This document shows, one piece after another, positions 46,620 through 62,505 of a stretch of DNA of 64,000 bases (the stretch's first letter is position 1; each line of letters opens with the position of its first letter). Location of the stretch: contig JACWDY010000001.1 in the NCBI GenBank assembly GCA_014653835.1, forward strand, positions 210,961 to 274,960, read 5' to 3'. The notes beneath the pieces were generated by a model. That model was not told where the DNA came from, searched no databases, and saw only the letters and a program-made list of their open reading frames with translations. The translations under genes and the position numbers were made by a program. The DNA comes from Pelagibacterales bacterium SAG-MED28 (lineage in GTDB: Bacteria; Pseudomonadota; Alphaproteobacteria; Pelagibacterales; Pelagibacteraceae).

Positions 46620-46630
46620 ACTTAACTTTT

Positions 46631-46659
46631 TGCAAAACTTGGTGCAAACGTGGTGCAAC
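46631..46659 (+). repeat. Helically phased direct repeats next to tRNA-Asp, possible att arm sites
   Basis: Three copies of TGCAA start at 46631, 46643 and 46654 (spacing 12 and 11 bases, about one helical turn); the last two are part of the longer repeat TGGTGCAA. Immediately to the right is an inverted repeat GTGGTG (46650-46655) / CACCAC (46672-46677). They sit 11 to 58 bases from the 5' end of the tRNA, where integrase arm-type or excisionase sites would be expected in a tRNA-inserted phage. The repeat pattern is seen directly; the function is inferred. Confidence 0.4.
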
Positions 46660-46700
46660 TCTAAGCGCTGTCACCACTTCAAACTTCTTCTACAAGATGC

Positions 46701-46730
46701 TTGTTACACTCTTTATATATACTTTATAAG
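46701..46730 (+). promoter_or_regulatory. Candidate promoter for the + strand small ORF
   Basis: TTGTTA (46701-46706) and TATAAG (46725-46730), spacer 18, on the + strand, upstream of the 58-codon ORF at 46803. It points away from the tRNA and against the phage late genes. The match is moderate in an A/T-rich stretch. The region 46731-46802 between it and the ORF holds nothing else I recognise. Confidence 0.35.
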
Positions 46731-46802
46731 AAAATAAAAGACCTCATTTACACCAGTAAAATGAATCTTTTTTTACACCAAAATAGGATTATATTATTAT
46801 TA

Positions 46803-46979
46803 ATGAGTAAATTTAATCAGGCGAGAACACAGCAAAGACTTGAGGAAGTGCTTGATAGTCTGTGTCGTTTAACTGGAAGAGATATATTTGTCGTACTGCC
46901 TAAGCAAGTAGATGAGAGAATACCTTATTTAAAGGAAGAGATTAAAAAGACTTTAGATCTTATTCAAAGAACTAATTAA
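46803..46979 (+). CDS. Hypothetical small protein at the prophage edge (58 aa)
   Basis: Not recognised. The ORF track gives 92 residues from 46701, but the first 34 (LHSLYILYKKIKD...) are A/T-driven and overlap the promoter-like sequence; ATG46803 gives a compact helical protein starting MSKFNQARTQQRLEEVLDS and ending with an amphipathic KEEIKKTLDLIQ helix. It is the only phage-side ORF on the + strand near the border and would be transcribed independently of the late operon, as expected for a lysogeny-expressed or host-interaction gene (inference). Its end overlaps the convergent 52-residue gene by 8 bases. Confidence 0.5.
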   Translation: MSKFNQARTQQRLEEVLDSLCRLTGRDIFVVLPKQVDERIPYLKEEIKKTLDLIQRTN

Positions 46980-47130
46980 AACCTTTTAACATATTTGTAT
47001 AAGCCTTAGCACTGATTGTGCTTTTCTTTTTAGTTCGAGACTTGCCAGCTTTCTTACGTTTGTTAATGTTGTAGTACAAACCTTTACGTGCAGTCTTACC
47101 GCTTTTAGTTTTATGATAACCTTTTTTCAC
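46972..47130 (-). CDS. Small basic phage protein (52 aa, GTG start)
   Basis: Missing from the ORF track because of size. GTG47130 is preceded by a strong AAAGGAGG. The product begins MKKGYHKTKSGKTARKGLYYNINKR and is about one third Lys/Arg. From memory, similar KKGYHKTK-type small basic proteins occur in marine phages; I cannot name a function. It overlaps the 113-residue gene by 20 bases and is the last gene of the - strand phage operon before the tRNA. A virion-associated or DNA-binding role would fit the charge (inference). Confidence 0.65.
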   Translation of the reverse strand: MKKGYHKTKSGKTARKGLYYNINKRKKAGKSRTKKKSTISAKAYTNMLKGFN

Positions 47131-47452
47131 GAAACCTCCTTTGTTTCATTTCTGTTTTATAATTATTAAGTTTTGCCACGATGGCAGCTCTCTCTTCTGA
47201 AGTGATTACTTTTTCTTTTTCTTGAGATTGCTTTTCTTTTTGTGGCTGTAAGCCTTTTTCTTTTTCTTCTTGTACATTAGTGTCCTTATGGTTGAGCCAG
47301 TCTGTGTGGCAATCCTTAGTAGCTGGATAACCTGGTGTTTGTTCCATACAGAATGTGTGTTGAGTTGCAGTTATAATAAAGCTTTCATTATTCTGACCGC
47401 AGTAATCGCATTTAGGTGCGATAATTATTTTACGCTTTTTTCTTTTGTTCAT
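47111..47452 (-). CDS. Hypothetical phage protein with zinc-ribbon-like cysteines (113 aa)
   Basis: Not assigned to a named family. The N-terminal third holds C15-x2-C18, C35 and C48 (KCDYCGQ, HTFCMEQ, KDCHTDW), which could bind zinc. The C-terminal part is a charged Lys/Glu/Gln-rich helix (EKEKGLQPQKEKQSQEKEK) likely to be disordered or coiled. It starts from ATG47452 in a 66-base gap downstream of the antisense tRNA. Codon use matches the other phage genes. Possible nucleic-acid binding small protein; function unknown. Confidence 0.65.
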   Translation of the reverse strand: MNKRKKRKIIIAPKCDYCGQNNESFIITATQHTFCMEQTPGYPATKDCHTDWLNHKDTNVQEEKEKGLQPQKEKQSQEKEKVITSEERAAIVAKLNNYKTEMKQRRFREKRLS

Positions 47453-47518
47453 TTATGGTAATTGTTTTCACAATAATGGTGACAGCATTATTCAATCCTT
47501 ACAGCTGCACTATTATGT

Positions 47519-47595
47519 GGAGTTGTAGCTCAATTGGTCAGAGCATCCGATTGTCGATCGGAAGGTTGCGAGTTCAAGTCTCGTCAACTCCGCCA
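47519..47595 (+). tRNA. Second tRNA-Asp (anticodon GTC), phage-borne, antisense to late genes
   Basis: A complete 77-base cloverleaf with encoded CCA: acceptor GGAGTTG/CAACTCC, D arm GCTC/GAGC, anticodon stem TCCGA/TCGGA with loop TTGTCGA (anticodon GTC), T arm GCGAG TTCAAGT CTCGT, discriminator G73. It differs from the host-type tRNA-Asp in every stem and has A38 and G37 instead of C38 and A37. It lies between phage genes (7 bases from the 79-residue gene) and on the opposite strand. Probably carried by the phage; a relic attachment site cannot be excluded. Confidence 0.88.
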
Positions 47596-47602
47596 AATTA
47601 AT

Positions 47603-47842
47603 TTAACGCCAAGCTCGACAGCTCCAATACCTAGCCTTTGTCTTAGGACCAGGAGTTGAACAACGATGTCTCGCTAAAAAAGATTTCTTTCTGCCTGGCT
47701 GATTTTTTTTAATACTCATTGTCTTACTTCCAAAAGAAACTTTCTTTACCTTGCTTCCGTCTTTTACATAGACGTAAGATTTTTTAGATCCGCCTCTTAC
47801 TGGTTTATTAAGAGTAACTTTTTTTCCACGATATGTTGCCAT
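47603..47842 (-). CDS. Small basic phage protein with C-terminal Cys/Trp motif (79 aa)
   Basis: Product of 79 residues, strongly basic, with an N-terminal MATYRGKKVTLNKPVRGG and a C-terminal GRKKSFLARHRC followed by KTKARYWSCRAW. The pattern RKKSFxARHxC...KTxAxYWSCxxW resembles, from memory, small conserved proteins of T4-like cyanophages and marine phages; no function is established. The paired Cys, His and Cys could bind a metal. Coupled to the upstream 66-residue gene by TAATG. It ends 7 bases from the antisense tRNA-Asp 3' end. Confidence 0.7.
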   Translation of the reverse strand: MATYRGKKVTLNKPVRGGSKKSYVYVKDGSKVKKVSFGSKTMSIKKNQPGRKKSFLARHRCSTPGPKTKARYWSCRAWR

Positions 47843-48042
47843 TAGTCTAAATTAGATATGCTTAATATTTTGCCGTCTTTAACTACTGCTTTAACTCGCA
47901 TACATCTAAATTCAGCATTGTTTGTAGATCTCATTGATATACGTCTGCGCTCTAAGCATTCACCTAAATTTTTCATAAGTAAGTGTTCTTTTAAAATTGG
48001 TGGATCACCTAAAAATAATAAGAGACTAATTACTATTTCCAT
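47842..48042 (-). CDS. Hypothetical small phage protein with signal-like N-terminus (66 aa)
   Basis: 66 residues beginning with a hydrophobic stretch MEIVISLLLFLGDPP and then CLERRRISMRSTNNAEFRCMRVKAVVKDG. Two cysteines flank an Arg-rich region. Similar small proteins occur among late genes of marine phages (recalled, not searched). It could be membrane-inserted or exported and, being next to a second membrane protein and the holin, might take part in lysis (inference). It overlaps the 125-residue gene by 17 bases. Confidence 0.6.
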   Translation of the reverse strand: MEIVISLLLFLGDPPILKEHLLMKNLGECLERRRISMRSTNNAEFRCMRVKAVVKDGKILSISNLD

Positions 48043-48403
48043 TTAATTTTCTTGTTAGATTTTTTAAGTATTCGATATTTTCTTGAGCCTTCTCTAAAGA
48101 CTTCTCTATGTTATTAATCATAACCTGTGAGTGAATGTTTTTGTCTAGCAGCTCCTGGTGTTTAGCTATGATCTTTGCGTTATGTTCTATAAGCATATAG
48201 ATCTCTAAATTCTTAGGTGTCTGTTCAGCTTTCTTTAAAAGATCAGATGACATTAATTGATCTTGCGTCTCAAGACTGGTAATCCTATTCTGAAGATTGC
48301 TGAAGCCGAGAACTGCCGAAATAATAAAAGTTACAATAACGAGAAAGTTTGCAATAGGAATATTTAATTTTGTTTTGTCGCTTACAGAAATTTGATCTTT
48401 CAT
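48026..48403 (-). CDS. Phage membrane protein with coiled coil (125 aa), lysis-region
   Basis: 125 residues: a short cytoplasmic N-terminus (MKDQISVSDKTKLN), one membrane segment (IANFLVIVTFIISAVLGFS, about residues 17-35) and a long coiled-coil tail with regular Leu/Ile spacing (NRITSLETQD and NNIEKSLEKAQENIEYLKNL). The design, one anchor plus a periplasmic coiled coil, resembles i-spanin or XhlA-type lysis accessory proteins, but no lipobox partner is obvious. It is coupled to the 44-residue gene by ATGA and lies two genes from the holin. Confidence 0.65.
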   Translation of the reverse strand: MKDQISVSDKTKLNIPIANFLVIVTFIISAVLGFSNLQNRITSLETQDQLMSSDLLKKAEQTPKNLEIYMLIEHNAKIIAKHQELLDKNIHSQVMINNIEKSLEKAQENIEYLKNLTRKLNGNSN

Positions 48404-48534
48404 CTACCTTGTCCTCTATATTTCTTAGGTCTTTGTTTACCTGGTCCTACTTTTTTTCTTATTCTTCCTGGTCTTTTTCTTGGTTTAGTTTTGACGTAGT
48501 TTGAAATTCCAAACAGACCTTTTTTCTTTGCCAT
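48400..48534 (-). CDS. Small basic phage protein (44 aa)
   Basis: Too short for the ORF track. ATG48534 overlaps the holin stop (TAATG) and its TGA overlaps the next ATG (ATGA), so it is locked into the operon. The product MAKKKGLFGISNYVKTKPRK continues with Arg/Lys/Gly/Pro-rich sequence, more than one third basic. Short proteins with GLFGISNYVKTKPRKR-like starts are familiar from marine phages; function unknown. Confidence 0.65.
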   Translation of the reverse strand: MAKKKGLFGISNYVKTKPRKRPGRIRKKVGPGKQRPKKYRGQGR

Positions 48535-48869
48535 TACTTCTTAAAGATATTTGAAATTTTAATACCGAAGCTTGCTGCTACGATTGCACCAAAGATATAG
48601 AAGATCTCTGCTGGCATAGCCGATAAGACTTTAGCCCAGTTCATAAACCTTTCAGTCTCACCAATTAAAGGTAAACTTAGAATTACTAAAAACCAAACAA
48701 GTATGAGTTCATCTTTAAAACTACCACCGCTCTCTTTAATTTTAGCAATTTGAATTTCTTTTTGGCACTCGATCTCTGTATTACGCTGCACTTCTTTTTT
48801 CTTAAGATGATGCTTAAGTGCGCCAATAGAATTTTCTAATAATGTTTTTCCTAGTAAATTAAATATCAT
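48534..48869 (-). CDS. Holin (3-TM, GTA-type)
   Basis: Membrane protein with a soluble N-terminal helix (ENSIGALKHHLKKKEVQRNTEIECQKE) and two or three C-terminal membrane segments (ELILVWFLVILSLPLI and IFYIFGAIVAASFGIKISNIF). This layout, including the ending VAASFGIK, matches the 3-TM holin family described in gene transfer agents and marine phages. The track starts at a TTG (48881), but ATG48869, overlapping the endolysin stop by one base, is more likely (111 residues). It lies immediately downstream of the endolysin gene. Confidence 0.78.
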   Translation of the reverse strand: MIFNLLGKTLLENSIGALKHHLKKKEVQRNTEIECQKEIQIAKIKESGGSFKDELILVWFLVILSLPLIGETERFMNWAKVLSAMPAEIFYIFGAIVAASFGIKISNIFKK

Positions 48870-49270
48870 TAATATTTCCAAGCATTAGGTCTCATGTCGA
48901 AGCCTTCAGCTGCTGTTAGGTTGTCAATATGGATAAATGATTTTGCTACACCTAAGCCTGTAACTTTAGCTGTAAAGTAATCAATGAGTTGTTTTCTGTG
49001 TTTACTATCTTTGACTGAAATATCTAAAGCATGACCTGTTGTGTGAGGTCCGTTTGCTCCAGTGCTAGACACACTTGAGTTATGTGAGCTGCACCTGTAA
49101 GCGCTTGTAATAGATAAAGATCCTAGTTGATCTCTAGCGTCTTGCAAAAGATCTAAGATCTCTGCATTTACTTTTACAGCGGCACAACCGCATTTACATT
49201 TAAACTCATCAAGCTTAAAGTTTTTCCACCTTTCCTTCCACTCGCTTTGTTCTTTTATGTAAGTTGACAT
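48869..49270 (-). CDS. Peptidase M15 endolysin
   Basis: Zinc peptidase cleaving peptidoglycan cross-links, 133 residues with no signal peptide, so it depends on the holin for release. Motifs: KCKCGC near residue 24, SAYRCSSHN, GPHTTGHALDIS giving H76 and D83 as zinc ligands (H-x6-D), and FIHID giving H114. All ligands are present. This is the single-domain M15_3 form frequent in phages. The start ATG49270 lies inside the upstream gene with a 56-base overlap. The holin follows by TAATG. Confidence 0.9.
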   Translation of the reverse strand: MSTYIKEQSEWKERWKNFKLDEFKCKCGCAAVKVNAEILDLLQDARDQLGSLSITSAYRCSSHNSSVSSTGANGPHTTGHALDISVKDSKHRKQLIDYFTAKVTGLGVAKSFIHIDNLTAAEGFDMRPNAWKY

Positions 49271-49502
49271 AATAATTTTTTACTCCTAATTTTTTTTGAA
49301 TTTCTGATGAGTATCTTTTGCGGTGACGTTTATCGTCATCACATTTGACATCGTATAGTTCCACCTCACCTGTCTTAATATTTATACGGACTATATCTAT
49401 TGGTCCTTGACCTTGTATATTTTCAAATAGAAGATGATCGTCATCCAACAGATCTATTGCAGCTGTTAGATGAGCAACAATCCCACGATTGTAATATTTC
49501 AC
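49215..49502 (-). CDS. PD-(D/E)XK-like nuclease fold protein (95 aa), putative
   Basis: 95 residues starting at GTG49502, which overlaps the previous stop (TAGTG). Pattern GQGPIDIVRINIKTGEVELYDVKC gives D36 ... D51-x-K53, the core of PD-(D/E)XK nucleases, followed by basic residues that could contact DNA. Very small for a nuclease, and E27 could be the additional acidic residue. Holliday-junction resolvase-like and endonuclease-like minimal folds of this kind occur in phages. Its place between a coiled-coil membrane protein and the endolysin is unusual. Activity is unproven. Confidence 0.6.
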   Translation of the reverse strand: MKYYNRGIVAHLTAAIDLLDDDHLLFENIQGQGPIDIVRINIKTGEVELYDVKCDDDKRHRKRYSSEIQKKLGVKNYYVNLHKRTKRVEGKVEKL

Positions 49503-49693
49503 TAAAGAATTTTATTTAATAATAAAAATAGTTCACCTAGTACGGCTAAACCTACAGCACCGAGTACATATAAAATTCGATCAATGTCTTTTTTTATATG
49601 TGCTAAATGATTGTTTTCTAACGTATCAAGTTTTTCGTTTATGATCGCTACTTCTTTATCTAGCTTTTGGACAAGTTGATCTGTTTCTTGCAT
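49502..49693 (-). CDS. Small phage membrane protein, XhlA/hemolysin-like (63 aa)
   Basis: 63 residues: an N-terminal amphipathic coiled coil (QKLDKEVAIINEKLDTLENN) and a C-terminal membrane helix (ILYVLGAVGLAVLGELFLLLNKIL). The same order, coiled coil then single membrane helix, is found in XhlA-type lysis accessory proteins. It lies just upstream of the nuclease-like and endolysin genes. Starts 2 bases after the stop of the 21-residue ORF. Confidence 0.6.
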   Translation of the reverse strand: MQETDQLVQKLDKEVAIINEKLDTLENNHLAHIKKDIDRILYVLGAVGLAVLGELFLLLNKIL

Positions 49694-49695
49694 GG

Positions 49696-49761
49696 TTATT
49701 TTTCCAATTTAGAAATTAAATCTTTCCAAAACTTTTTTATTTTTGTAATTATTTTTTTCAT
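49696..49761 (-). CDS. Tiny hypothetical ORF (21 aa) in the lysis region
   Basis: ATG49761 overlaps the stop of the oxygenase gene by one base (TAATG) and its stop is 2 bases before the next ATG, so it fills the gap exactly. The product MKKIITKIKKFWKDLISKLE is an amphipathic basic helix. Either a genuine mini-protein or chance; the perfect coupling on both sides is the main support. Confidence 0.4.
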   Translation of the reverse strand: MKKIITKIKKFWKDLISKLEK

Positions 49762-50381
49762 TATTTAAAAGGTGGTCCTCCAAACCACATAACCAATGAC
49801 TTACGATTTCCTTTTGTAACAGGTGTAACTCTGTGTCTTACAAAACTTGCAAAGAAGATTGCATGACCTCTTTTCATCTTTGGTCTTTTTGCATCATCTA
49901 TCATTTCTAAATCGCCACCTTCAAAATCTTTTTCATCAGATAATAAAAGTGTCATTGATATTTTTCTTACAGGCGGCTGTAACCTCATATCTGTGTCATT
50001 ATCAGTATGCCATTCATAGAAAGCTCCTGTTGGATATTCAGTATATTGTGCTTGTTCTGTTATTTGAATGCCATCAAAACCAAAATGATTACAGTTTATA
50101 TTTCTAACTAATGTATCAATTTTTTTGTACATAAGTATAGTATCAGGTCTATTAAACGGCAGCCATGAAATAGTAGTTATTCTTTTTTTACTATCATTAA
50201 CTCCAGTATCTTTTATTTTTGTTGGATCTAAATTTTTTTCAGTTTGTGTAGCTGTTCCAATTTTAGCAGCAGCTTGATCTTCACTTTGACCAATTCTAAT
50301 AATATGATCGCATTGTTCAGGTGTAAAGATAGCTTCGTTAGTTGCTACAATATATGATTTCCATCTAGGTTCTAAAATCAT
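49761..50381 (-). CDS. 2OG-Fe(II) oxygenase, PKHD/prolyl 4-hydroxylase type
   Basis: Non-haem iron dioxygenase using 2-oxoglutarate and O2. The track start is a TTG at 50390; ATG50381 overlaps the previous stop (TAATG) and gives 206 residues. With that numbering the iron ligands are H125-x-D127 (EWHTDND) and H183 (VRHRVTP), and R193 in GNRKSLVMW binds 2-oxoglutarate. FEGGDLEM matches the prolyl-hydroxylase core. All catalytic residues are present. Phage copies are known in marine viruses with unsettled function. It lies directly after a second, different oxygenase and downstream of fibre genes. Protein (prolyl) hydroxylation is an inference. Confidence 0.85.
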   Translation of the reverse strand: MILEPRWKSYIVATNEAIFTPEQCDHIIRIGQSEDQAAAKIGTATQTEKNLDPTKIKDTGVNDSKKRITTISWLPFNRPDTILMYKKIDTLVRNINCNHFGFDGIQITEQAQYTEYPTGAFYEWHTDNDTDMRLQPPVRKISMTLLLSDEKDFEGGDLEMIDDAKRPKMKRGHAIFFASFVRHRVTPVTKGNRKSLVMWFGGPPFK

Positions 50382-50959
50382 TATTGCCAAACTTCTTTCA
50401 TAGCTTCGTCTTTACCTTGACCAAGATATTTTCTTCCGTCTAATGCAAATGATTTATAATTACCATTAGCTCTAATATAATGTAAAAAAACTTGCATACA
50501 TTTTTCGCCATTGTAAGGATCTCGCCAATGAGAATAGTTACAACCTTCATAAACAATAGCATCACCTGGCTTTGTTAAATATGAAGTTGGTTTAGCATTA
50601 GGATTAACTTTTGTTGTTCCTTCTTTTAATTTATGAAACCAAATAGACCAATCTTTATCTGCAAAGATATTTAAACTGATAGATACTTCACATGACGGTC
50701 TATCATTATGTTTAACTAGCTCACCACCTTTATGATACATTCTTGAGTATGTGTAAGTTGGTGTAAGTTTCTCGCCTACAAATTTTTCTACTAAAGATTT
50801 TTTTGTGCTTAAAAATGTTTCACTTAAAAAATCAGAATATACAGCAACAGAGTTTGGCGATTGAGTACATGGCTTTAAACCAGGCTCTCTGATCTTCCAA
50901 TAATCCTGTGCTAATTTTAATTCTTCACTATTGAGAAAGTTTTGGATTGCTTTTATCAT
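50381..50959 (-). CDS. 2OG-Fe(II) oxygenase-like protein (second, diverged)
   Basis: 192 residues. The double-stranded beta-helix pattern is seen in YSRMYHKGGELVKHNDRPSCEVSISLNI, giving H84-x-D86, and GDAIVYEGCNYSHWRD gives H144 as the third ligand. The 2OG-binding Arg is less clear, possibly R146 or a later residue in QVFLHYIR. It is distinct from the neighbouring PKHD-type enzyme. Similar proteins are familiar in cyanophages and other marine phages. It starts at ATG50959, overlapping the coiled-coil gene upstream by 32 bases. Confidence 0.72.
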   Translation of the reverse strand: MIKAIQNFLNSEELKLAQDYWKIREPGLKPCTQSPNSVAVYSDFLSETFLSTKKSLVEKFVGEKLTPTYTYSRMYHKGGELVKHNDRPSCEVSISLNIFADKDWSIWFHKLKEGTTKVNPNAKPTSYLTKPGDAIVYEGCNYSHWRDPYNGEKCMQVFLHYIRANGNYKSFALDGRKYLGQGKDEAMKEVWQ

Positions 50960-51614
50960 TGGTTGTACCTTTACCGTTTGTGTTGATTTTAAGCGTTCCT
51001 TCTTTTTCTAATCTTTGCGCTGTCATAATTTGAGCAGCTATATTTTTAGCTCCATCAGCATCATTAGCTTTGTCAAAAAATTGAAATGTTTTCATTAATC
51101 TTTTTGGTAAGCTTTCTTGCTGATGCGTATTAACATTCTGTTTATCAAAATCAGGATCTTGTTTTACAAGCTCATCTTTAAGCTCTGACCATAATCTTAA
51201 CTCTCTCATTCTATCTTTAGCTGTAAGTTCCATACCAGCTTTATCAAAAGTTTTTTGTTCTAGGTCTATTTGTAAACTTTCTTTTTCTAGTTCGTCTTTT
51301 TCTTCAGCTATTTTTTTGTGTAGTTTTTTAATCTCAACTTCATTTCTTCTGTAGTCAAAAGATAAAAAAACCATTTGTTCAAAAAATACGTTTTGCTCTC
51401 TAACAGCTTGCCAGTATTTAGCAGCTGGTGTTGGATGTTTAAGATCATTTAAAACAGATATTCTCATTTCTGTTTCAGTTCTAAACATTTGTTTTTTAAC
51501 CCATGTGTCTTGCAATTCTGCTTTCATGGCTTTGAAGTCTTTAACCTCATCTTCACTTAAAATATTTAATAAGTGGTTATCCATTGGCATCAATGGATTT
51601 ATTTGTTTTGGCAT
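50928..51614 (-). CDS. Hypothetical phage coiled-coil protein (228 aa)
   Basis: Not recognised. Helical throughout, with strongly charged heptad-like segments (KIAEEKDELEKESLQIDLEQ) at about residues 105-125 and a low-complexity Asn/Thr/Lys tail. No signal peptide or membrane segment. It lies between the fibre chaperone and the oxygenase pair and overlaps the latter by 32 bases. A structural or assembly role is possible but unsupported by motif. Confidence 0.6.
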   Translation of the reverse strand: MPKQINPLMPMDNHLLNILSEDEVKDFKAMKAELQDTWVKKQMFRTETEMRISVLNDLKHPTPAAKYWQAVREQNVFFEQMVFLSFDYRRNEVEIKKLHKKIAEEKDELEKESLQIDLEQKTFDKAGMELTAKDRMRELRLWSELKDELVKQDPDFDKQNVNTHQQESLPKRLMKTFQFFDKANDADGAKNIAAQIMTAQRLEKEGTLKINTNGKGTTNDKSNPKLSQ

Positions 51615-51618
51615 TTGA

Positions 51619-51912
51619 TTACTCCTTTGGATTAGTTGGAAATTGTACTGCCTTTACTTCTGCTTCTGTTGTTAGATCGTTTGTGATGTCTCTTAAATCT
51701 TTTCTATATTTTTTTATTTCATCAGACATTGTATTATCTGATAAAGCATAGTAGTCAGTTTCTTTTAAAAGATTATTTCTTTTATTTCTTAAATCAAAAA
51801 TTGCTCTATCAAATGCACCATTAGCCCAAGCCAATTCTTCTGCGTCTCTTGCAGTTTCTTCTGCTGTTGTAAATCTTATTCTTTCGCCATTAACTAATTT
51901 ATATCTTGCCAT
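51619..51912 (-). CDS. Phage tail-fibre assembly chaperone-like protein (97 aa)
   Basis: 97 residues with the pattern RNNLLKETDYYALSDNTMSDE followed by YRKDLRDI, closely resembling the phage tail assembly chaperone family (R-N-x-L-L-x-x-T-D-W/Y ... Y-R-x-x-L-R-D-I). Such proteins are encoded directly after fibre genes and help fold or attach them. Here it follows the cupredoxin-containing fibre gene after 9 bases, which supports the role. Confidence 0.75.
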   Translation of the reverse strand: MARYKLVNGERIRFTTAEETARDAEELAWANGAFDRAIFDLRNKRNNLLKETDYYALSDNTMSDEIKKYRKDLRDITNDLTTEAEVKAVQFPTNPKE

Positions 51913-51921
51913 AATTATCTC

Positions 51922-53325
51922 CTAACTATTAACCACACCAAAGAGTGAAAAATTACCTCTATCAATATTTCCTGATCCTGATCTTATTTGAAATCCTGTA
52001 ATTGCTGCAGTTGATGTATTTGATCCTGAGAAATAACCTGATAGAGTACGTGCGTGTTGGCTTATACCTACAATAGTTCCATGAACTAATTTACGTGTAT
52101 CAGTAGTTGATGGTTTATAAATATTTATTTCAAGACCCATACTTTCAGCTGCAGCACTACCTTGTCCTGTTTGGTGTATTCTTATATCGCTATCACTAGC
52201 ACTATTAAAATTATCAGTTCCACTATTACTATCTCTCGTCATACCTGAAAAATCATAATTTGATGTTAGATAAGATGAACCAGCATCAGTAGAATATCTT
52301 ATATGTAGTTTTTGATTATCTGTTGCAATTCTCATATCAGAAACAATTAATTTATATGCGTTATAAGTACTATCAAAAACAACACCTGAAGAACCATGAT
52401 TAAAATCAACAGAAGCTACTCCTGAAGTTACGTTTTGTGTTTTAATATGAACTAATCCACCACCACCAGCATCAGCAAAAGATAAAACTCCTGAGCCATT
52501 TGTTGTTAAAACTTGGTCTGATGTGCCATCGGCAGTAGGTAATTTTAATAATGTTCCACTTGTATTAATTTGATTAGATAAATGGTTTATATGATTTCCC
52601 ATGTAAGCATGAGAGCTGCATTGATAGTAAAGAATATTTGGTGTGTATTCATCTACTTGAATTGTTGTAAAAGCTCCAGCATTACCAGGTGTTCCAGTTG
52701 CTGTTACATTAGTGGTATATGCTCCTGTTTTATCTGCTTTTAAATAAAACAATAAAGGATGTCCTGAATTAGAGGCATCTGATTGATCAAACTTATAATA
52801 ATATTTTTTACCTGTATCAGATCCGTTAAATTTTAAAACAGGTGCTTCAACACCATCGATTTCATAACCACTTCCTGATCCTGATCCGTTGTAAGGATGT
52901 GCAGCAGTTTTAGTTATAACTTTAACTTCATAAGTTATTGGATTGCTTGATGAACCATAAACGCCTTTTTCAGAATTTTGATCTGCTAATTTTTTATTTG
53001 TTACTGAACTTGTTTTTAATTTAACAGCACTAATACTATCATCACTTGGAACTCCAATATCGTTTACATCACCTAATACTAAAATAAAGTCGATAACATC
53101 CGAGCTAGTCAAAGAGCTGTCGAAAACAATATTAGATCCTGATATTGTAAACGCATCTGTTGGAGCCTGTATTACCCCATTTAAAGATACAATCATTTGA
53201 TTAACCGATTGTGGAGTAAATGCTGCTCCACCATTAGCTAAAGCATACGTTGCTGTTGCAGACGTAGTGATACTATCTAATTTTGTAAAGTTTCCTGATA
53301 CTATTCCTCTTCCAATATATGGCAT
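51922..53325 (-). CDS. Tail fibre/receptor-binding protein with a cupredoxin-like (type 1 copper) domain
   Basis: 467 residues. Residues 1-120 form a fibre attachment region common in marine phages (LNGVIQAPTDAFTISGSNIVF), ending in a repeat-like IS-AVKLKTSSVTNKKL stem. Residues about 130-245 read like a cupredoxin: APVLKFNGSD and KYYYKFDQSDASNSGHPLLF with H189, then ILYYQCSSHAYMG with C236, H239 and M242. The Cys-x2-His-x2-Met ligand loop plus an upstream His is a complete blue-copper ligand set with amicyanin-like spacing. The C-terminal part (about 300-467) resembles a receptor-binding jelly-roll. Copper binding is inferred from spacing only. Confidence 0.75.
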   Translation of the reverse strand: MPYIGRGIVSGNFTKLDSITTSATATYALANGGAAFTPQSVNQMIVSLNGVIQAPTDAFTISGSNIVFDSSLTSSDVIDFILVLGDVNDIGVPSDDSISAVKLKTSSVTNKKLADQNSEKGVYGSSSNPITYEVKVITKTAAHPYNGSGSGSGYEIDGVEAPVLKFNGSDTGKKYYYKFDQSDASNSGHPLLFYLKADKTGAYTTNVTATGTPGNAGAFTTIQVDEYTPNILYYQCSSHAYMGNHINHLSNQINTSGTLLKLPTADGTSDQVLTTNGSGVLSFADAGGGGLVHIKTQNVTSGVASVDFNHGSSGVVFDSTYNAYKLIVSDMRIATDNQKLHIRYSTDAGSSYLTSNYDFSGMTRDSNSGTDNFNSASDSDIRIHQTGQGSAAAESMGLEINIYKPSTTDTRKLVHGTIVGISQHARTLSGYFSGSNTSTAAITGFQIRSGSGNIDRGNFSLFGVVNS

Positions 53326-53341
53326 AATTTTTTATTACTCC

Positions 53342-54559
53342 TTAAGCAAATGTTGCTGGTGATGTTAATACTGCTAATGCAGCTCCTGTATATTCTGCAA
53401 CAAGATTTCCTGGATAAGGTGGACTTCCACCTCCAAATACAATTCCTCCTGAGTTTCCTCCACCTGTGTTTCCTCCACCTGAATGTGAACCATTTGAAGA
53501 ACTATAAGTTGGTGCGTTAGCTAAAGGAATATCTGAACTCCAAGAAGTTCCATTGTACAATTCTGTTGAGTTAGTCAAAGATGGATAATCACCACCTATT
53601 GCTAAAACTCCTGTGTTAGTTGGACCATTAGCTGTTCCTAGTCTTGAACATTCAGGTCTTGCAGTACTTAATGATGGTCCAGCTGCATATGCTGTGCCAT
53701 TAAATGTTGCTGATGTAGCTGCATAAGATCCACTAAAAACTAAGAGATTACTTGTAGGTCCAGCACTTGCAACAAAGTTAGAACCTGTAGGTGCAGTTGC
53801 TCCAGCTGACCAAGAAGATCCATCGTATGCTTGTGATGCTGTTGGATTACTAGGATGGTTCCATCCATTAGTAATAAGAGCATCTGATTGTGTTCCATGT
53901 CCATGTTGCTGACCCAAACTAGATGCAGCATAATTTAAACTTGCAGATGATCCCCAAGAAGATCCATCAAATTCATAAGAAATAGTTGTTTTAGGATAAG
54001 AAGGATGCGATGCATTTGGACCTGATGGATTACCATGTCCTCCTCCACCTAATGCAGCAGATTGAGTTCCAATCGCCATTGTTCCTGAGTTATAATAAGG
54101 ATAGTTAGGTCCATTAGACCAGCTTGATCCATCAAATTTTATAAAGTCATTACCTCTTGCTCCGTTGTCACCACCAGTTCTAGGATGCGATCCATAACCT
54201 GATAAACCCCAAGTGCTGTCTTTTGTAGTTCCATTACTTGACCAACCTGATGCTCCATAAGGAATTGCAGTTCCAGCTGAAAAAGCAGCAGAACCTATTA
54301 AATAAGATTTTAATTGTTTTGTATCAGTTCTTAACCACATGTCACCTTCATTAGGTGATGGAGGATTTGATGTTACAGCTGGTACACCAAGATTAACTGC
54401 TGGTGAAATATCTGCAGCAGCGATTGTGCCTGGAGCTATCTCAGTTGTTGTAACAGTTCCTGGTGCTATGTCTGCAGCTGCAACTGTATTAGGTGCAATT
54501 TCAGTTGTTGTAATTGCATCTGCTGTAATTCCTCTTTGTTTAAGTTTTGTTATAGCCAT
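53342..54559 (-). CDS. Kelch-like tail fibre with N-terminal decapeptide stem
   Basis: 405 residues. The N-terminus contains four decapeptide repeats alternating TTTEIAP(N/G)TV and AAADIAPGTV (residues about 17-55), likely a trimeric stem with Ala-Pro-Gly at several turns. SNPPSPNEGDMWLRTDTKQLKSYL follows, then several kelch/propeller-like units with the signature YDGSSW or YNGTSW (FDGSSWSN, FDGSSWGS, YDGSSWSA, YNGTSWSS). A Gly-rich loop GGGNTGGGNSGG lies near the end. It is probably a receptor-binding propeller in the adhesin set. Adjacent to the cupredoxin fibre. Confidence 0.72.
   Translation of the reverse strand: MAITKLKQRGITADAITTTEIAPNTVAAADIAPGTVTTTEIAPGTIAAADISPAVNLGVPAVTSNPPSPNEGDMWLRTDTKQLKSYLIGSAAFSAGTAIPYGASGWSSNGTTKDSTWGLSGYGSHPRTGGDNGARGNDFIKFDGSSWSNGPNYPYYNSGTMAIGTQSAALGGGGHGNPSGPNASHPSYPKTTISYEFDGSSWGSSASLNYAASSLGQQHGHGTQSDALITNGWNHPSNPTASQAYDGSSWSAGATAPTGSNFVASAGPTSNLLVFSGSYAATSATFNGTAYAAGPSLSTARPECSRLGTANGPTNTGVLAIGGDYPSLTNSTELYNGTSWSSDIPLANAPTYSSSNGSHSGGGNTGGGNSGGIVFGGGSPPYPGNLVAEYTGAALAVLTSPATFA
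54409..54530 (-). repeat. 30-base tandem repeats encoding fibre decapeptides
   Basis: About four imperfect 30-base units in the 5' part of the kelch-like fibre gene alternate between two versions (Ala-Ala-Ala-Asp and Thr-Thr-Thr-Glu), making a 60-base higher-order period. The encoded units contain Ile-Ala-Pro-Gly. Such a repeat can vary in copy number by slippage and change fibre length (inference). Confidence 0.65.
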
Positions 54560-54561
54560 TT

Positions 54562-54867
54562 TTATTCCGTTATAGTAATTGCTTCAGGTCTTAAAATGTT
54601 GTTTTGTTTTTCAAAGCTGTCGCTTGGTAAAGCATCCCAATCAGATTGTGATTGAGCGACAACAGTATTAACAAGAGTTTGAGCTTCAGCTTTTGTTTTA
54701 GAAACTCCATTAACTCTAGTAATCCATGCTTGACCTGTAGTATTATCTTCTACTTGCCAAACATTACCTGGATAACCTTTAACATTTAAAGATGTAACAT
54801 TTTCTTGATCTGCATTAGTTATAAAACCTTTGCCTAAGTTATTTGCTTTACAATATATTTTTGCCAT
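54562..54867 (-). CDS. Hypothetical small phage structural protein (101 aa)
   Basis: The track ORF starts at 54918 inside the previous gene; MAKIYCKANNLGKGFITNAD from ATG54867 is the plausible start, preceded by an A-rich AAAGAAAAAA region. 101 residues with a compact, mixed beta composition and conserved-looking WQVEDNTTGQAWI. It lies between two virion-type genes. Not recognised; a small fibre-associated or decoration protein is possible. Confidence 0.6.
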   Translation of the reverse strand: MAKIYCKANNLGKGFITNADQENVTSLNVKGYPGNVWQVEDNTTGQAWITRVNGVSKTKAEAQTLVNTVVAQSQSDWDALPSDSFEKQNNILRPEAITITE

Positions 54868-54884
54868 TTTTTTTTCTTTATTGT

Positions 54885-55211
54885 TTATGTTGAAATTGCA
54901 TCTACAGCTGATACCCAAACATCTAATGAAGATGCTGTATCTGATATAACTTTTAAAGCATCACCTGAGTGAACTACAAATTTAGCTCCCCCATCTAATA
55001 CTTGTAAAGAACCACCAGCTGCAATCGGTGCATCCTTAACAAGATAAATATCATTTGATCCATCATTGATATAAACCGATGCCTCTACAGTTGATGTAGT
55101 TATATTTGCTAGAGATATTCCAACAACAGTGTCGAAACTGTCTGCTGTAAATATTGTTGCGGCTCCTGTGCCTACATCATTACTTGTATATCTTCTAAAG
55201 TTTTGCGCCAT
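54885..55211 (-). CDS. Small phage virion protein, beta-rich (108 aa)
   Basis: 108 residues, beta-rich, beginning MAQNFRRYTSNDVGTGAATI, with ASVYINDGSNDIYLVKDAPIAAGGSLQVLDGGAKFVVHSGD-like alternation of strands and turns. It resembles short structural proteins located next to fibres in marine podoviruses (recalled). Located between the T7-type fibre and the 101-residue protein with 11-17 base gaps. Function unassigned. Confidence 0.62.
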   Translation of the reverse strand: MAQNFRRYTSNDVGTGAATIFTADSFDTVVGISLANITTSTVEASVYINDGSNDIYLVKDAPIAAGGSLQVLDGGAKFVVHSGDALKVISDTASSLDVWVSAVDAIST

Positions 55212-55222
55212 TTTTTTTCCTC

Positions 55223-56290
55223 CTATAGTGCTATTGCCATTGCAATTCCAAATCCTTTAGTTCCAAACGCTGAAACATCCGTTGCGGCTACTTGCCAGGA
55301 AGATCCGTTGTAAACATAAAGTTGATTGTCTGTTGTTAAAAATACTAAATCACCAGCTGTTAAAGCATCACCGTCATTATCAACTGATGGTAAACTTGAT
55401 TTTGCTCCAAGATAAACATCGTCAAAATTATCTGCTGCTAATTCTGCTGCTGTCTTAGCTGCCTCTGCTGCTGTTGCAGATGTTGCTGCTTCACTTGCTT
55501 TAGTCGTTGCTGTTGATGCTGAGCTAGCTGAAGCTGTTGCTGAATTTGCTGCTGCAGTAGCGGATGATGCTGCTGCCGTTGCAGATGTTGCAGCTGCCGT
55601 TGCAGATGTTGTAGCAGATGCTGCATCAACGATTAAATCCCATTTAGCGTTATCGGTATTACTTGTTAACGGTTGAGATCCGCTAGAGGTGTGAGCAGTG
55701 TTACAGTAAAAAATGTTATTTGTGCTAGTGTCTTTAACTAAATCTCTTACAGCGTAAGTTCTTGATGCTGCCCAGTTGCCTTCAAAAGATCCTAATTCTT
55801 GAGCAACAGTTAATTCACCAGCGCTATCAAATGAAACTAATTTATTTGCACGATCTGTTGCAGATTGCGTAAACTCTGTAGAGGTAATTGTATTTGTTCT
55901 TGATAATTTTAAAGATCTATCAACTTCTTCTTGAAGCTCTTGAGTAATAGAAGTTAGTTTATCGTAAGCATCTTCTAAAGTATTTGCTGGAAGTGGATCG
56001 TTTTCAATTAAATCTACTCCTTGCGTTTTTGGTGTATCTCTTCTTAAAACAACAGTTTCAGTAGCTGTTGGAATGTTTCCGCTAGTGAAAGTAACAGTTC
56101 CTCCGTTAGCATTCCCAACACCACCGACAGTATAATGAGTGGTAATCGTTTTAGTTGTTTCTGTTCCATCAGCGCTCCTTATTATTACGTCAATGTCGTC
56201 TTGATCTGTAATTTTAAATGTATAGTTAAAGGCTGTTGTAGAGCCGTTTCCACTTGATGAATTTTTTATTGTTGTTGTAGATATAGTCAA
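55223..56290 (-). CDS. Tail fibre protein with T7 gp17-type N-terminus
   Basis: 355 residues. The start is TTG56290 with AGGA six bases upstream and no in-frame ATG before a TGA. Residues 1-150 resemble the T7 gp17 tail-attachment domain (GNGSTTAFNYTFKITDQDDIDVIIRS and VVLRRDTPKTQGVDLIENDPLPANTLEDAYDKLT). Next come an SLKLSRTNTI segment, an Ala/Ser/Thr-rich coiled-coil stalk (about 225-290) and a short C-terminus with DLVFLTTDNQLYVYNGSSWQV. It would be the adaptor fibre that joins the virion and the other two receptor-binding proteins (inference). Confidence 0.82.
   Translation of the reverse strand: MTISTTTIKNSSSGNGSTTAFNYTFKITDQDDIDVIIRSADGTETTKTITTHYTVGGVGNANGGTVTFTSGNIPTATETVVLRRDTPKTQGVDLIENDPLPANTLEDAYDKLTSITQELQEEVDRSLKLSRTNTITSTEFTQSATDRANKLVSFDSAGELTVAQELGSFEGNWAASRTYAVRDLVKDTSTNNIFYCNTAHTSSGSQPLTSNTDNAKWDLIVDAASATTSATAAATSATAAASSATAAANSATASASSASTATTKASEAATSATAAEAAKTAAELAADNFDDVYLGAKSSLPSVDNDGDALTAGDLVFLTTDNQLYVYNGSSWQVAATDVSAFGTKGFGIAMAIAL
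55440..55625 (-). repeat. Ala/Ser/Thr-coding tandem repeats in the fibre stalk
   Basis: The stalk of the T7-type fibre is encoded by imperfect repeats of about 21 bases. The clearest direct repeat is GCTGCCGTTGCAGATGTT at 55572-55589 and 55593-55610, 21 bases apart. On the protein it gives seven-residue units such as ATSATAA and ASSATAA, consistent with a heptad coiled coil. Confidence 0.65.
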
Positions 56291-56301
56291 TTTATTTCCT
56301 G

Positions 56302-59112
56302 TTATTGTTCTTGTTCAAAGTAATCACCTTGTATTGGCTCACCTTGATTTAGTGTTAGTATTTTTTCTGCGAATTTTTCTGTCGCTTCTTCTGTAATTCT
56401 TGTATTAACATCTTCTGATTTAGAATAAGGATTATCACCAGCACCTATTAAATCACCGTAAGCTGCTTGTTCTGCTGCAGTAAAAGCTTTTTTTATATAA
56501 CCTTGTTTAATAAAGTTATCTTGAGCTTCTGAATATTCATCAGAAGAAAATAAAACAGATAGATTTTCTTTTGCATATGCACCTTTACGTTTTTGTAAAA
56601 ATGCTAATTCATCAGATGTGTATTCTACTGTAGTTCCAAGAAAACCTTTTGTAATAGATTTACCTCTTCTCATGGGTCTAATCTCTACTTGAGTTTTTCT
56701 AAGCTCGTCTCTAATAGGATCGTTTTTAGCAATAGTGTATGCACCCCAACCTTGAACTTCGTCACCTAATAAATCGTATTGTTTATTTAAGTTGTTATTA
56801 ATACCGATAGCTTTTTTTGCGTATTCACTAAACTCAACAGCAAGTTTTTGCTGACTATCATTTGTAATAAAATTATAAGTCTTACCAGTTTGTTTTACGA
56901 TTGAAGGTATAAAGCTTGTTCCAATATCTTTTCCCCATCGTTGCGCACCTTTAGCTAAACCTAACTGTTTAAAGTTTTGAAAATCATTAATACCTTTTGA
57001 AACACCTGACATAAATGTACTGTCAGATAAGTTCTCACCAAAAGACAACATTAAAGCTGTAGCTATCGCAACGTGATCTTGCCATTGATCATGATCTTTA
57101 AAACCCATTTGTGCAATAGCGCTAAGATCTGCTGCTTGTTTAAACATCATAGCAACTGGATCAAATAAAGTATCTCTTACTGAAACATTTATAGTTGTAT
57201 CACCATAAGGAATATTAATAGTACCACTTCCAGTGCCTAAAGTTTTTTGCATAGCAAACTTAGATCCGTCTGCTTTAAATTTACTTCCAAGCTCAGGTGA
57301 TGTTCCTGTTGCATAACCACCATAGTTCATTCCCATAACTGTAGTATAGAATGCTGAGCCTAAAGCCATTTTCGCTTTAGCTTTATCTCTAATCGCTTTG
57401 TTAGGTGAACTTAATTGATTTCTATAATCTTTTAATAATAAATTTAAACCTGGTGATCTCTCTAAGGCAAACTTAGCTACGTTCGTAGGTGTTTGAATAA
57501 ACGGTAAATAGTAGTTCATCATGAAATTCATGTAACCTAGATCTTTACTATTTTTTATATCTTGTAATTTACCTCCGACAAAAGCTATAGCTCCGTCTTG
57601 ATCTTTCATTTTAGTTTGAAATGTAGAATACAAAGTTGCTTGTCTTGCTTCTTCCACTATTGATTTAGTTGGATTAGCAACAAGATCAGCTAAATATATT
57701 TCTGCATTCTTTCTATCTAAAGATCCATCACCTATTTTTTTTAAAGTATCTCTATAAGCTAAACCATATAGTTCAGCTCTGTATTCTCTGTTTTTAAAAT
57801 AGTTATCTGAAACTGTTAAAAGCTTAGTAGGTATTCTATCTAATGTTAAAATTCTTCCAGCTATATCCGTAAAGTTAGCTGATAAACTGCCAGCTTCTTG
57901 ATTGAAATTAGCTGCTGTAAATTTACCTGGTCTAACTTCAGCTTTATTACCGCTGACCATACTTGTAATTTTATCTATGTTTTTTAAGCTACCATTCATA
58001 GCAGCCCACATTTCTCTCGTTGCCATCGTTTTACCGAAAGCTCTAGCCATATCTTCGTATTCAGCAATTCCGCCACCTTTAGCATCACCAAATAATCTTG
58101 CAGCTAGTTTGTTTTCTGCTTGAATAATTCCTTGAGTAATCCAGTTACCAGCAGTGTTTCTTACGTGTGTTAATGGATTAGATAAAATCGCATTAATAAA
58201 AACTTCTGATACTGCTTCAGATATTCTGCTGTTAATAGTTCCAGCTTGTTCAGTAAATTGTAATCTTTGTTTTGTTGTACTTGTCTTAAGATACATCTGA
58301 GCCATCATCTTGATGTTATCTTCACCGCCAATCTCAACTAATAACTCTTGTCTATTTAATTCATCTAATCTTGCATTAGTGAATTTTTTAGTTCTTGTTG
58401 GTATTGAAAACTGTTGCAAGGCTCTTGCTGTTTCAGTTTGTACACCTTTTAAAATCTTTGTTAGTTCAGATGTTAAAGCAAAGTGTTGTCTATACTTTAA
58501 TATATCATCAGAGCTTCCAGCTACTGCTTTAGCAGCAAGTTCATCTAATTTAGTGTAAGAAGCTTCAACTAATTCTCTTGTAGCTAATATGTATTCAGCA
58601 TTTAATGTGTCACCTTTTTTTAAGTTCAGTAACGTAGCTGATAATTTTGTTTGGTCCTTTTGTAATAGGTCCGCTAAAGCTTGCGTTTGTTTATTAGTTT
58701 GTTCGCCTCTTTTTCTTGAACTAAAATCTTTTTTATAAGTTTCTGCAACTTCATCTATGTATTTAATAATATCGTCTTTAGACTGCATATTATTAATATT
58801 AAAATCGTTTAGTTTAGCTGGTGTTATTTTACCTCCAGCTTTTACTTTAAATAAAACTTTGTCTGCCTGTTCATCAGGAAAAGGCGTTTTTACTTTTGTC
58901 TTAACCGTAGCTGTTAATTCACCATCTACAGTTTCATAGTTTTTACCATCAATAAGAACTTTTTCTTTTTTAGCTTTATCGCCTTTTAAAAGTTTATCTC
59001 TTCTTATTTTAGGTCCAGCAATCTTCTCATCGATAATTTTTTGAGCGCCTTCTAATAATTGTTTACCTTCTGCTTCAGTAAATTTCTTACTGATGTTTCT
59101 AATGTTCACCAT
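56302..59112 (-). CDS. Large internal virion/ejection-like protein (936 aa)
   Basis: The largest phage gene in the window. Mostly helical; a basic, Lys-rich N-terminal 130 residues, then a helical body with VFINAILSNPLTHVRNTAGNWI (about 305-330), several hydrophobic segments (ALGSAFYTTVMGMNYGG, VAIATALMLSFGEN) and an acidic C-terminus. The position, following other internal-virion candidates and preceding the fibre, equals that of T7 gp16, but I see no transglycosylase motif. DNA ejection is inferred from position and size only. Confidence 0.65.
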   Translation of the reverse strand: MVNIRNISKKFTEAEGKQLLEGAQKIIDEKIAGPKIRRDKLLKGDKAKKEKVLIDGKNYETVDGELTATVKTKVKTPFPDEQADKVLFKVKAGGKITPAKLNDFNINNMQSKDDIIKYIDEVAETYKKDFSSRKRGEQTNKQTQALADLLQKDQTKLSATLLNLKKGDTLNAEYILATRELVEASYTKLDELAAKAVAGSSDDILKYRQHFALTSELTKILKGVQTETARALQQFSIPTRTKKFTNARLDELNRQELLVEIGGEDNIKMMAQMYLKTSTTKQRLQFTEQAGTINSRISEAVSEVFINAILSNPLTHVRNTAGNWITQGIIQAENKLAARLFGDAKGGGIAEYEDMARAFGKTMATREMWAAMNGSLKNIDKITSMVSGNKAEVRPGKFTAANFNQEAGSLSANFTDIAGRILTLDRIPTKLLTVSDNYFKNREYRAELYGLAYRDTLKKIGDGSLDRKNAEIYLADLVANPTKSIVEEARQATLYSTFQTKMKDQDGAIAFVGGKLQDIKNSKDLGYMNFMMNYYLPFIQTPTNVAKFALERSPGLNLLLKDYRNQLSSPNKAIRDKAKAKMALGSAFYTTVMGMNYGGYATGTSPELGSKFKADGSKFAMQKTLGTGSGTINIPYGDTTINVSVRDTLFDPVAMMFKQAADLSAIAQMGFKDHDQWQDHVAIATALMLSFGENLSDSTFMSGVSKGINDFQNFKQLGLAKGAQRWGKDIGTSFIPSIVKQTGKTYNFITNDSQQKLAVEFSEYAKKAIGINNNLNKQYDLLGDEVQGWGAYTIAKNDPIRDELRKTQVEIRPMRRGKSITKGFLGTTVEYTSDELAFLQKRKGAYAKENLSVLFSSDEYSEAQDNFIKQGYIKKAFTAAEQAAYGDLIGAGDNPYSKSEDVNTRITEEATEKFAEKILTLNQGEPIQGDYFEQEQ

Positions 59113-59163
59113 GTTTTAATTTTTCTGTTTTGAAAAAAACAAATATCTGAGGATAGTGTTTTC

Positions 59164-59985
59164 TTACTCTTTTTCTGTTGTTTGTGAAATAATATTGTTT
59201 TGGATATTATCTGATACTTTATTTACAGTTTCAGCTGTAGCTGTAGCTCCACCAACTGCAACAGCATTCTGTTGCCAGTTAGAATTTTTAATACCTTTTA
59301 ATACTGGACCTAACTTATCGAAAGCAAAACCTAAAGATGAACCTTCTATAGCAAGTAAAGCATTATCAACCATATCATCTGCTGATGTTCCTTCTTCTAT
59401 ATTTGCGTATCTCTTTAAACTTTTTACAGCGTCAGTATCTACAAGTATGCTTGTATCTTTATTAAAAGCTAATGATTGACCAGTACCAAAAGCTAGAGGT
59501 AAAGCGTACTGTTTTGGTAATCCAAATGATTTAAGTTTTTTATAAACTGGAACTATGTAAGCAGCATCTTGTCCAACGATTGCAACCATCTTTGAAACTA
59601 ATGGACTATCTTTATCAAGCTCATCTAAGCTCTTCATTTGCTTATCTATTTTATCTTTAACAAATTCGTATGAGCTATCAGGATTAACACCTATTAAGTT
59701 TGTAGCACTATTAACAAATCCAAATCCATTCATTGTTCCTCGAGTTACACTTAACAACATGTCTTTAGGCATAGACTTAACGAAATCAAAAACATCTTCT
59801 ACTAATATAGTTTTTTCAGCTTCATCTATTTTACCTAACTGAACTTCACCAGCATTAGGATCAGGATCTTCACCGTCTAATAAAGCAGTATCAATTTTAT
59901 TTTCTTTTAATAGCTTATACTCCTGGCTACTAATTAGCTCTTCATCAGTTTTAAGACCTAAATATAAATCTAGTATATCAGCCAT
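59164..59985 (-). CDS. Hypothetical phage structural protein (273 aa), internal-virion candidate
   Basis: Not recognised. 273 residues, mixed helical, with an acidic N-terminal segment (DPDPNAGEVQLG) and several small hydrophobic patches (AYIVPVYKKLKSFGLPKQYALPLAFGTG). It ends with NVSDNIQNNIISQ-like polar sequence and is separated from the 936-residue gene by 51 bases holding a TGTTTT/AAAACA hairpin. Start ATG59985 overlaps the stop of the previous gene (TAATG). Probably part of the ejection apparatus by location. Confidence 0.6.
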   Translation of the reverse strand: MADILDLYLGLKTDEELISSQEYKLLKENKIDTALLDGEDPDPNAGEVQLGKIDEAEKTILVEDVFDFVKSMPKDMLLSVTRGTMNGFGFVNSATNLIGVNPDSSYEFVKDKIDKQMKSLDELDKDSPLVSKMVAIVGQDAAYIVPVYKKLKSFGLPKQYALPLAFGTGQSLAFNKDTSILVDTDAVKSLKRYANIEEGTSADDMVDNALLAIEGSSLGFAFDKLGPVLKGIKNSNWQQNAVAVGGATATAETVNKVSDNIQNNIISQTTEKE

Positions 59986-61595: not shown

Positions 61596-62053
61596 TAGCC
61601 TAATAAACTTCCTGAGCTTTGATAGTTAGCAAACATTTTGCCACCAGCTTTTGCAAACTCTGTATCTCTTGTTAAATCACCTTTAAATCTTTCAGCAGTT
61701 CCTCTGCTTTCAGTTAAGATAGATCTATTAAAACTATCTATTAAATTCATTTCTGCGTTATAATCTTGAATAGCAACATCTGTAGCTTGATTAACTTTAA
61801 ATTCTAAACCAGCTAAATAAGGTGATGTACCAGCTCTAAATTCTGCTCCTGAGTTTAAAGCACTTACTAAAAAAGTAGAGTATTGAGATTTTTGCTGTTT
61901 TAAAAATATAGGTCGAGTGACTTTATCATAAGTAGCTTTAGCTATTTCGCCTTGACGTTTTTGATAAGCTGCTTGCGCACTATAAACACTTTGATTGTAC
62001 TTACCTATCGCTGAAGCTGCTTGTCCAGCTACTATGTTACCTATAAAACTCAT
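61595..62053 (-). CDS. Internal virion-like protein (152 aa), gp14-position
   Basis: 152 residues. The N-terminus MSFIGNIVAGQAASAIGKYNQ is hydrophobic and Ala/Gly-rich, followed by a long helical region (AQAAYQKRQGEIAKATYDK), resembling the small internal core protein B of T7-like phages, gp14. It is coupled to the acetyltransferase-fold gene by ATGA and to the next gene by TAATG. Confidence 0.65.
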   Translation of the reverse strand: MSFIGNIVAGQAASAIGKYNQSVYSAQAAYQKRQGEIAKATYDKVTRPIFLKQQKSQYSTFLVSALNSGAEFRAGTSPYLAGLEFKVNQATDVAIQDYNAEMNLIDSFNRSILTESRGTAERFKGDLTRDTEFAKAGGKMFANYQSSGSLLG

Positions 62054-62505
62054 AAATATATTTTTGCCATTCTGTAATAATCTGAACCATCAGGTCCATA
62101 TTTTTTCATCAATCCTTCATCTTGCAATCCTAAGAACTTTGCAAAACGATAACCTTCTTTAAAACCAGCTTTTACTGATGTTTGTAATCGTCTAATATTA
62201 TTGTTTAGACATAAGAGATCTGTTCTCTTTTTAATTAATCTCGTAGCTTTGAATTTGATTTGAAATATTCTTTTGCCACCAATAACCCAGCCTTCGCATA
62301 CTCCACTCCATAACGGAATAATGCCACCACAAACAATAGGATGACCATCACCCAATAAAGTAAATGACATACCAGGTCGTGAATGATCGAGGCGTAATTC
62401 TTCATAGCTTGCATCAATTTTAAGTAATTCATAATTTAAACCTTCTTTAACAATTTGATCGCCATGTTCCTGACGGTATGGAACAATTAAATAATTATCC
62501 GTCAC
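62050..62505 (-). CDS. GNAT-fold protein, T7 gp13-like (151 aa)
   Basis: 151 residues from GTG62505. The pattern GDGHPIVCGGIIPLWSGVCEGWVIGG and the C-terminal AGFKEGYRFAKFLGLQDEGLMKKYGPDGSDYYRMAKIY are typical of acetyltransferase-fold proteins in podoviruses, including the internal protein A (gp13) group needed for virion assembly. Whether it acetylates anything is unknown. Overlaps the nozzle gene by 11 bases. Confidence 0.75.
   Translation of the reverse strand: MTDNYLIVPYRQEHGDQIVKEGLNYELLKIDASYEELRLDHSRPGMSFTLLGDGHPIVCGGIIPLWSGVCEGWVIGGKRIFQIKFKATRLIKKRTDLLCLNNNIRRLQTSVKAGFKEGYRFAKFLGLQDEGLMKKYGPDGSDYYRMAKIYL

Follow-up and report, generated by a model that had tools for sequence, protein, structure and literature searches.

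Does the tail-fibre-like gene at this locus encode a blue copper domain, and if so, is its metal site intact? From the translation, an earlier note had pointed to a cupredoxin-like strand pattern carrying a His-Cys-His-Met set, and had left three options for it, i.e., a real copper site, a vestigial fold used for receptor binding, or a metal-stabilised adhesin.

The fibre protein and its modules

ORF calling places a single ORF of 467 aa with an ATG start on the minus strand, at 53325-51922 of the window (the whole stretch of 64,000 nucleotides that was analysed), and stop codons are found throughout the plus strand at 51922-53325. The product is a tail-fibre-like virion protein that contains the predicted cupredoxin domain and matches the PHROG tail-fibre families 30742 and 18673. 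Its assignment as a virion tail protein also rests on its neighbours in a tail gene block, and on phage isolates, whose fibre and baseplate genes also encode the domain, in agreement with the tail fibre setting originally proposed. A Pfam search with the 467-aa protein returned 0 matches.

The protein consists of three parts, all encoded on the minus strand. The N-terminal module (residues 1-115; 52981-53325) is common to other pelagiphage and cyanophage virion proteins, as detected by tblastn, with 51-54% identity in HTVC203P, HTVC035P, Melnitz and others. It is followed by the cupredoxin-like domain (residues 128-257; 52555-52944), delimited by an AF2 model and its Foldseek matches in the PDB, and by a C-terminal module (residues 286-464; 51934-52470) of the phrog_14820 family. 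The product of gp55 from the pelagiphage isolate HTVC026P shares 50% identity with the fibre over 115 residues in the N-terminal module and 33% over 213 on the C-terminal side (residues 260-464), and a short linker replaces the cupredoxin domain between its two modules. Since the flanking modules occur there without it, the domain is dispensable, one exchangeable part of the fibre protein.

Predicted fold of the central domain

The AF2 model of residues 128-257, built with 51 homologues, contains nine strands (pLDDT 93.2, pTM 0.86). Among its PDB fold matches are rusticyanin (2cal; E 3.3e-3, prob 0.99), the copper nitrite reductase NirK (2dv6; prob 1.00), laccases, CueO, SufI and a CuA subunit, and cupredoxin folds, judged by their descriptions, make up about 47 of the 50 best matches. 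The TM-scores against solved cupredoxins are 0.31-0.51 and the structural alignments have about 12-20% identity. A compact relative (locus L111), modelled separately with a pLDDT of 91.7, gave a similar picture: rusticyanin is matched with a TM-score of 0.57, plastocyanin, pseudoazurin and AcoP are near the top, cupredoxins again take about 47 of the top 50 PDB places, and TM-scores reach 0.60. In both models, the predicted fold is matched better by cupredoxins than by other sandwiches, so that the structure check proposed in the earlier note came out in its favour. No PDB match of either model is better than E 0.001 and the superpositions are loose, which points to a remote member of the fold or to a relative that has diverged strongly. 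A search of BFVD with the model retrieved marine phage fibres with TM-scores up to 0.90.

Sequence comparisons point in the same direction at a lower level. Single-sequence searches of Pfam, NCBIfam and the PDB gave nothing significant. With a 13-member profile, the best PDB matches are a copper nitrite reductase, another copper oxidase and pseudoazurin; these matches are weak (E 0.03-0.19), and the alignments to nitrite reductase and pseudoazurin place the ligand residues in register. Comparison with a profile of five pseudoazurins encoded by relatives of the host also aligned the ligands, with a poor score (E 0.015, Prob 3), and single family members reach PF00394 at 2e-4 and PF00127 at 0.06. 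In all, neither Pfam nor the profile searches linked the domain to a known cupredoxin family at a significant level.

Immunoglobulin domains are also present among the weak profile matches, and Ig-like domains are common in phage tails; it could thus be argued that this is an Ig-like or other sandwich domain bearing the motif by chance. We regard this as very improbable, because for both models about 47 of the 50 best places go to cupredoxins and not to Ig domains, and because the putative ligands stand at cupredoxin positions. In the numbering of the domain (residue minus 127), H62 precedes the strand 64-67, C109 ends the strand 104-109, and H112 and M115 lie in the loop ahead of the strand 117-121. 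Both models place the first His just before a strand, the Cys at the end of the penultimate strand and the Met just before the last one. These are the strand positions that type-1 ligands occupy in cupredoxins.

Conservation of the four predicted ligands

The numbering of the four residues given from the translation proved exact. SGHPLLF provides H189 (codon at 52759-52761), predicted as the first His ligand and located immediately before a strand (GHPLLF), and YYQCSSHAYMG provides the other three, i.e., the predicted Cys ligand C236 (52618-52620), final residue of the penultimate strand, the predicted second His ligand H239 (52609-52611), and the predicted axial Met ligand M242 (52600-52602), immediately before the last strand. 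All four codons are on the minus strand. H189 and H239 are assigned by conservation in relatives, and C236 and M242 by the model as well. C236 is the sole Cys of the 467-aa protein.

A CxxHxxM-type motif is present in 199 of 203 family frames, a count that includes loci picked by this motif, and for this reason we have put the weight on unbiased conservation tests; conserved alignment columns alone would be no proof of ligand invariance for the same reason. In each test, the loci were not selected on the residue tested. Among loci retrieved by the C-H-M end, 97 of 99 distinct domains have the first His. Conversely, loci retrieved by the His end or by the preceding strand have C-x2-H-x2-M with the same spacing in all 49 unambiguous virus loci (a number that leaves out two further loci whose sequence ends early) and in 24/24 loci of the genome collection. 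The ligands are therefore nearly invariant within the main lineage, as the earlier reading would require, and the spacing, which is that of the Cys-x2-His-x2-Met loop of amicyanin, is the same throughout.

The residues also appear to be retained as a unit. We examined 42 domain copies from phage isolates, including those of multi-copy long baseplate proteins, and found four ligands in 26, three in 0, two in one, and one or none in 15, figures that are only indicative because the set was found with a profile made from intact copies, and because it consists of related copies and includes a few fragments. Independent loss of ligands should have left 13-17 copies with exactly three, and 0 of 20,000 shuffles reached 26 copies with four. 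The absence of three-ligand copies would be difficult to account for if the residues did not act together. Moreover, outside the domain Cys is a rare residue (0.21%), and 61 of 153 distinct proteins contain no Cys other than that of the motif. As shown by computation, selection appears to maintain the four residues as a set.

A chance origin of the motif was ruled out by this all-or-none retention and by its near-absence in the other open frames of the fetched loci, where [YF]xCxxHxxM occurs 0 times and CxxHxxM twice in 532,736 residues.

Some copies have lost the site, indicating that the fold can serve without metal. The ligand-poor copies include residues 1535-1781 of the gp7 of locus L245, gp80 of L013, and copies in L253 and L248; in P-HM2 and MED4-213, a copy stripped of nearly all ligands directly precedes an intact one. 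Such ligand-free copies, found in long virion proteins of cyanophages, gp7-like ones among them, could be taken to mean that the domain of the fibre is itself a metal-free vestigial cupredoxin, serving as an ordinary adhesin sandwich with the four residues kept for packing, and SufI, a known copper-free relative of the fold, is among the PDB matches. We consider this quite unlikely for the fibre, given that the ligands are not lost singly, that proteins otherwise avoiding Cys retain their only one, and that the spacing is invariant in 73 unambiguous relatives that were retrieved independently of it. The vestigial option would thus fit a few extra copies in long baseplate proteins and not the fibre's own copy. 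A real copper site is the best supported of the three original options, since four residues, among them a sole Cys and a Met, seem to be kept or lost together.

Nature of the predicted metal site

From the models and the conservation together, we think it probable that residues 128-257 form a genuine cupredoxin whose type-1 copper site is intact, and that this domain has been reused as a rigid module of the virion surface. The predicted type-1 (blue) site would be made up of H189, C236, H239 and M242, with the short Cys-x2-His-x2-Met loop. The domain would probably fold metal-free in the host cytoplasm and could acquire its copper in the periplasm or, following lysis, in seawater. The metal would then lock both sandwich sheets and the loop at the open end, yielding a rigid and stable module outside the virion which, as its location suggests, may join in surface contact.

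The retention of four residues as a set speaks for a site and for no particular metal. It can be proposed accordingly that a cupredoxin-derived sandwich binds a non-type-1 metal, or only Cu(I)/Zn(II), as a structural staple that is neither blue nor redox active; a Pro follows the H189 position in 90% of relatives, where plastocyanin has Asn. We judge this unlikely, because His-Cys-His-Met in a cupredoxin fold is a type-1 copper site in characterised proteins and because the loop spacing is identical to that of amicyanin. A further step beyond a type-1 site would be that abundant ocean phages carry copper on their virions, in blue-copper domains of tail fibres and baseplates, and that the metal or its redox state plays a part in infection, for instance as a switch on contact with the host envelope or by baiting a copper-uptake receptor; we hold this to be doubtful.

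The domain resembles the small blue copper proteins (rusticyanin, plastocyanin, pseudoazurin and amicyanin) in its predicted fold, in the order His...Cys-x2-His-xn-Met and in the strand positions of the ligands. It differs from them in that they are free periplasmic electron carriers, whereas here a predicted site belongs to a module inside virion proteins. The type-1 order in its general form (His...Cys-x2-4-His-x2-4-Met) is present, and the ligands are kept as a set. No sequence match was found to amicyanins, which are periplasmic partners of methylamine dehydrogenase, and the gene lies in a phage tail block, so the domain shares only the loop spacing with amicyanin and is not an amicyanin. 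Copper nitrite reductases and multicopper oxidases, which contain cupredoxin repeats, are among the best fold matches and the best weak profile matches, but they are enzymes that also have type-2 or trinuclear centres, whereas only the type-1 set is predicted here.

Metal in phage fibres has a precedent in the iron bound by HxH motifs at the tip of T4 gp37 and in Alteromonas phage R22Y, which relates to the "Ferrojan Horse" idea (PMC11705849). Both cases place a metal site, in ours a predicted one, in a phage tail fibre, and both have a marine setting (PMC11705849). The iron fibres carry repeated HxH motifs along a trimeric fibre, whereas the site considered here belongs to one separate globular His-Cys-His-Met domain. 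In fact, the 467-aa protein contains no HxH motif, as none of its His residues (143, 189, 239, 245, 248, 293, 310, 341, 384, 415, 424) are spaced by two.

Distribution and novelty of the domain

A tblastn search with residues 131-257 retrieved 196 phage records, nearly all marine, from Synechococcus, Prochlorococcus, Methylophilales and Pelagibacter phages. The genes that bear the domain are annotated as tail fibre, gp7 baseplate wedge, baseplate wedge-tail fibre connector or virion structural protein. Judged by these matches, the domain is a mobile module that occurs in tail fibres and in baseplate proteins of cyanophages, pelagiphages and methylophages. The cultured cyanophages P-SSM2 and Bellamy are among its carriers. 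A scan with a five-member alignment detected 25 loci in the GTDB collection, many of which are Prochlorococcus single cells or MAG contigs of possibly viral origin. A copy with intact ligands (4893-5250 of locus L115) lies in a giant repetitive surface-type protein on a 1-Mb Bacteroidetes contig (SCGC AAA795-G10), and the presence of the domain in this marine single cell indicates that it is not confined to viruses. The plasmid collection has no match to the N-terminal 95 residues of the domain.

In the host genus, only two others of 101 genomes searched carry the domain, in both cases in long repeat-rich proteins that are tail-fibre-like by their start. The host genome (89% complete) has no PF00127 or PF13473 match. 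Acquisition of the domain from the present host is not supported by these two observations.

None of Pfam, NCBIfam and PHROGs labels the domain as a cupredoxin. PHROGs 30742, 677, 693, 32294 and 708 match the cupredoxin domain itself, but they are named by virion position (tail fibre, baseplate wedge-tail fibre connector, baseplate wedge). Among open-licence papers, we found no report of cupredoxin or plastocyanin-like domains in phage tail fibres or virions; an earlier mention elsewhere is possible. It seems, then, that this marine phage tail and baseplate domain has not previously been named as a copper domain. The cupredoxin reading offers a handle on what these fibres do, and blue colour provides a concrete and cheap test for a family listed in databases merely as "tail fiber" or "virion structural protein". 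The phage domain would make only a minor contribution to the strong copper ligands found in seawater: we estimate from general figures that 1e10 virions in a litre, at 100 sites per virion, give about 2 pM.

Proteins of Pithovirus LCPAC302/304 and Marseillevirus LCMAC201/202, named only "beta-sandwich protein", also match the model in BFVD by their predicted fold (E 1e-7 to 4e-6; A0A481Z6J5, A0A481Z7Q7, A0A481YWX9, A0A481YY19). They differ in coming from giant viruses of eukaryotes.

Genome context

Near the fibre gene there are genes for tail proteins, an endolysin and a 2OG-Fe(II) oxygenase. One tail protein gene (55223-56290, minus strand), whose product matches PHROG tail-protein families at its start (phrog_1640, phrog_13893), lies upstream in the same tail gene block. 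On the host side there are genes that, reading their translations, we take to be nuoA, nuoB and nuoC. The tail and endolysin genes together with these host genes suggest that a SAR11-like genome here contains a prophage-like block. The phage block spans 46620-64000 of the window, and the end of the window is also the end of the contig, so the block is incomplete and its far attachment site falls outside the window. With the block incomplete, there is a slight chance that the contig is chimeric.

The oxygenase gene (49761-50390, minus strand) encodes a PF13640 protein (E 2e-15). The adjoining gene (50381-50959, minus strand) matches PHROG families labelled ferrochelatase, a label that is doubtful because one such family also matches the oxygenase. 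A tRNA-Asp(GTC) gene is located at the boundary between host and phage (46543-46619, minus strand), and a second tRNA-Asp(GTC) gene lies within the phage block on the opposite strand (47519-47595, plus strand); the two possibly represent the integration site and a phage-borne tRNA.
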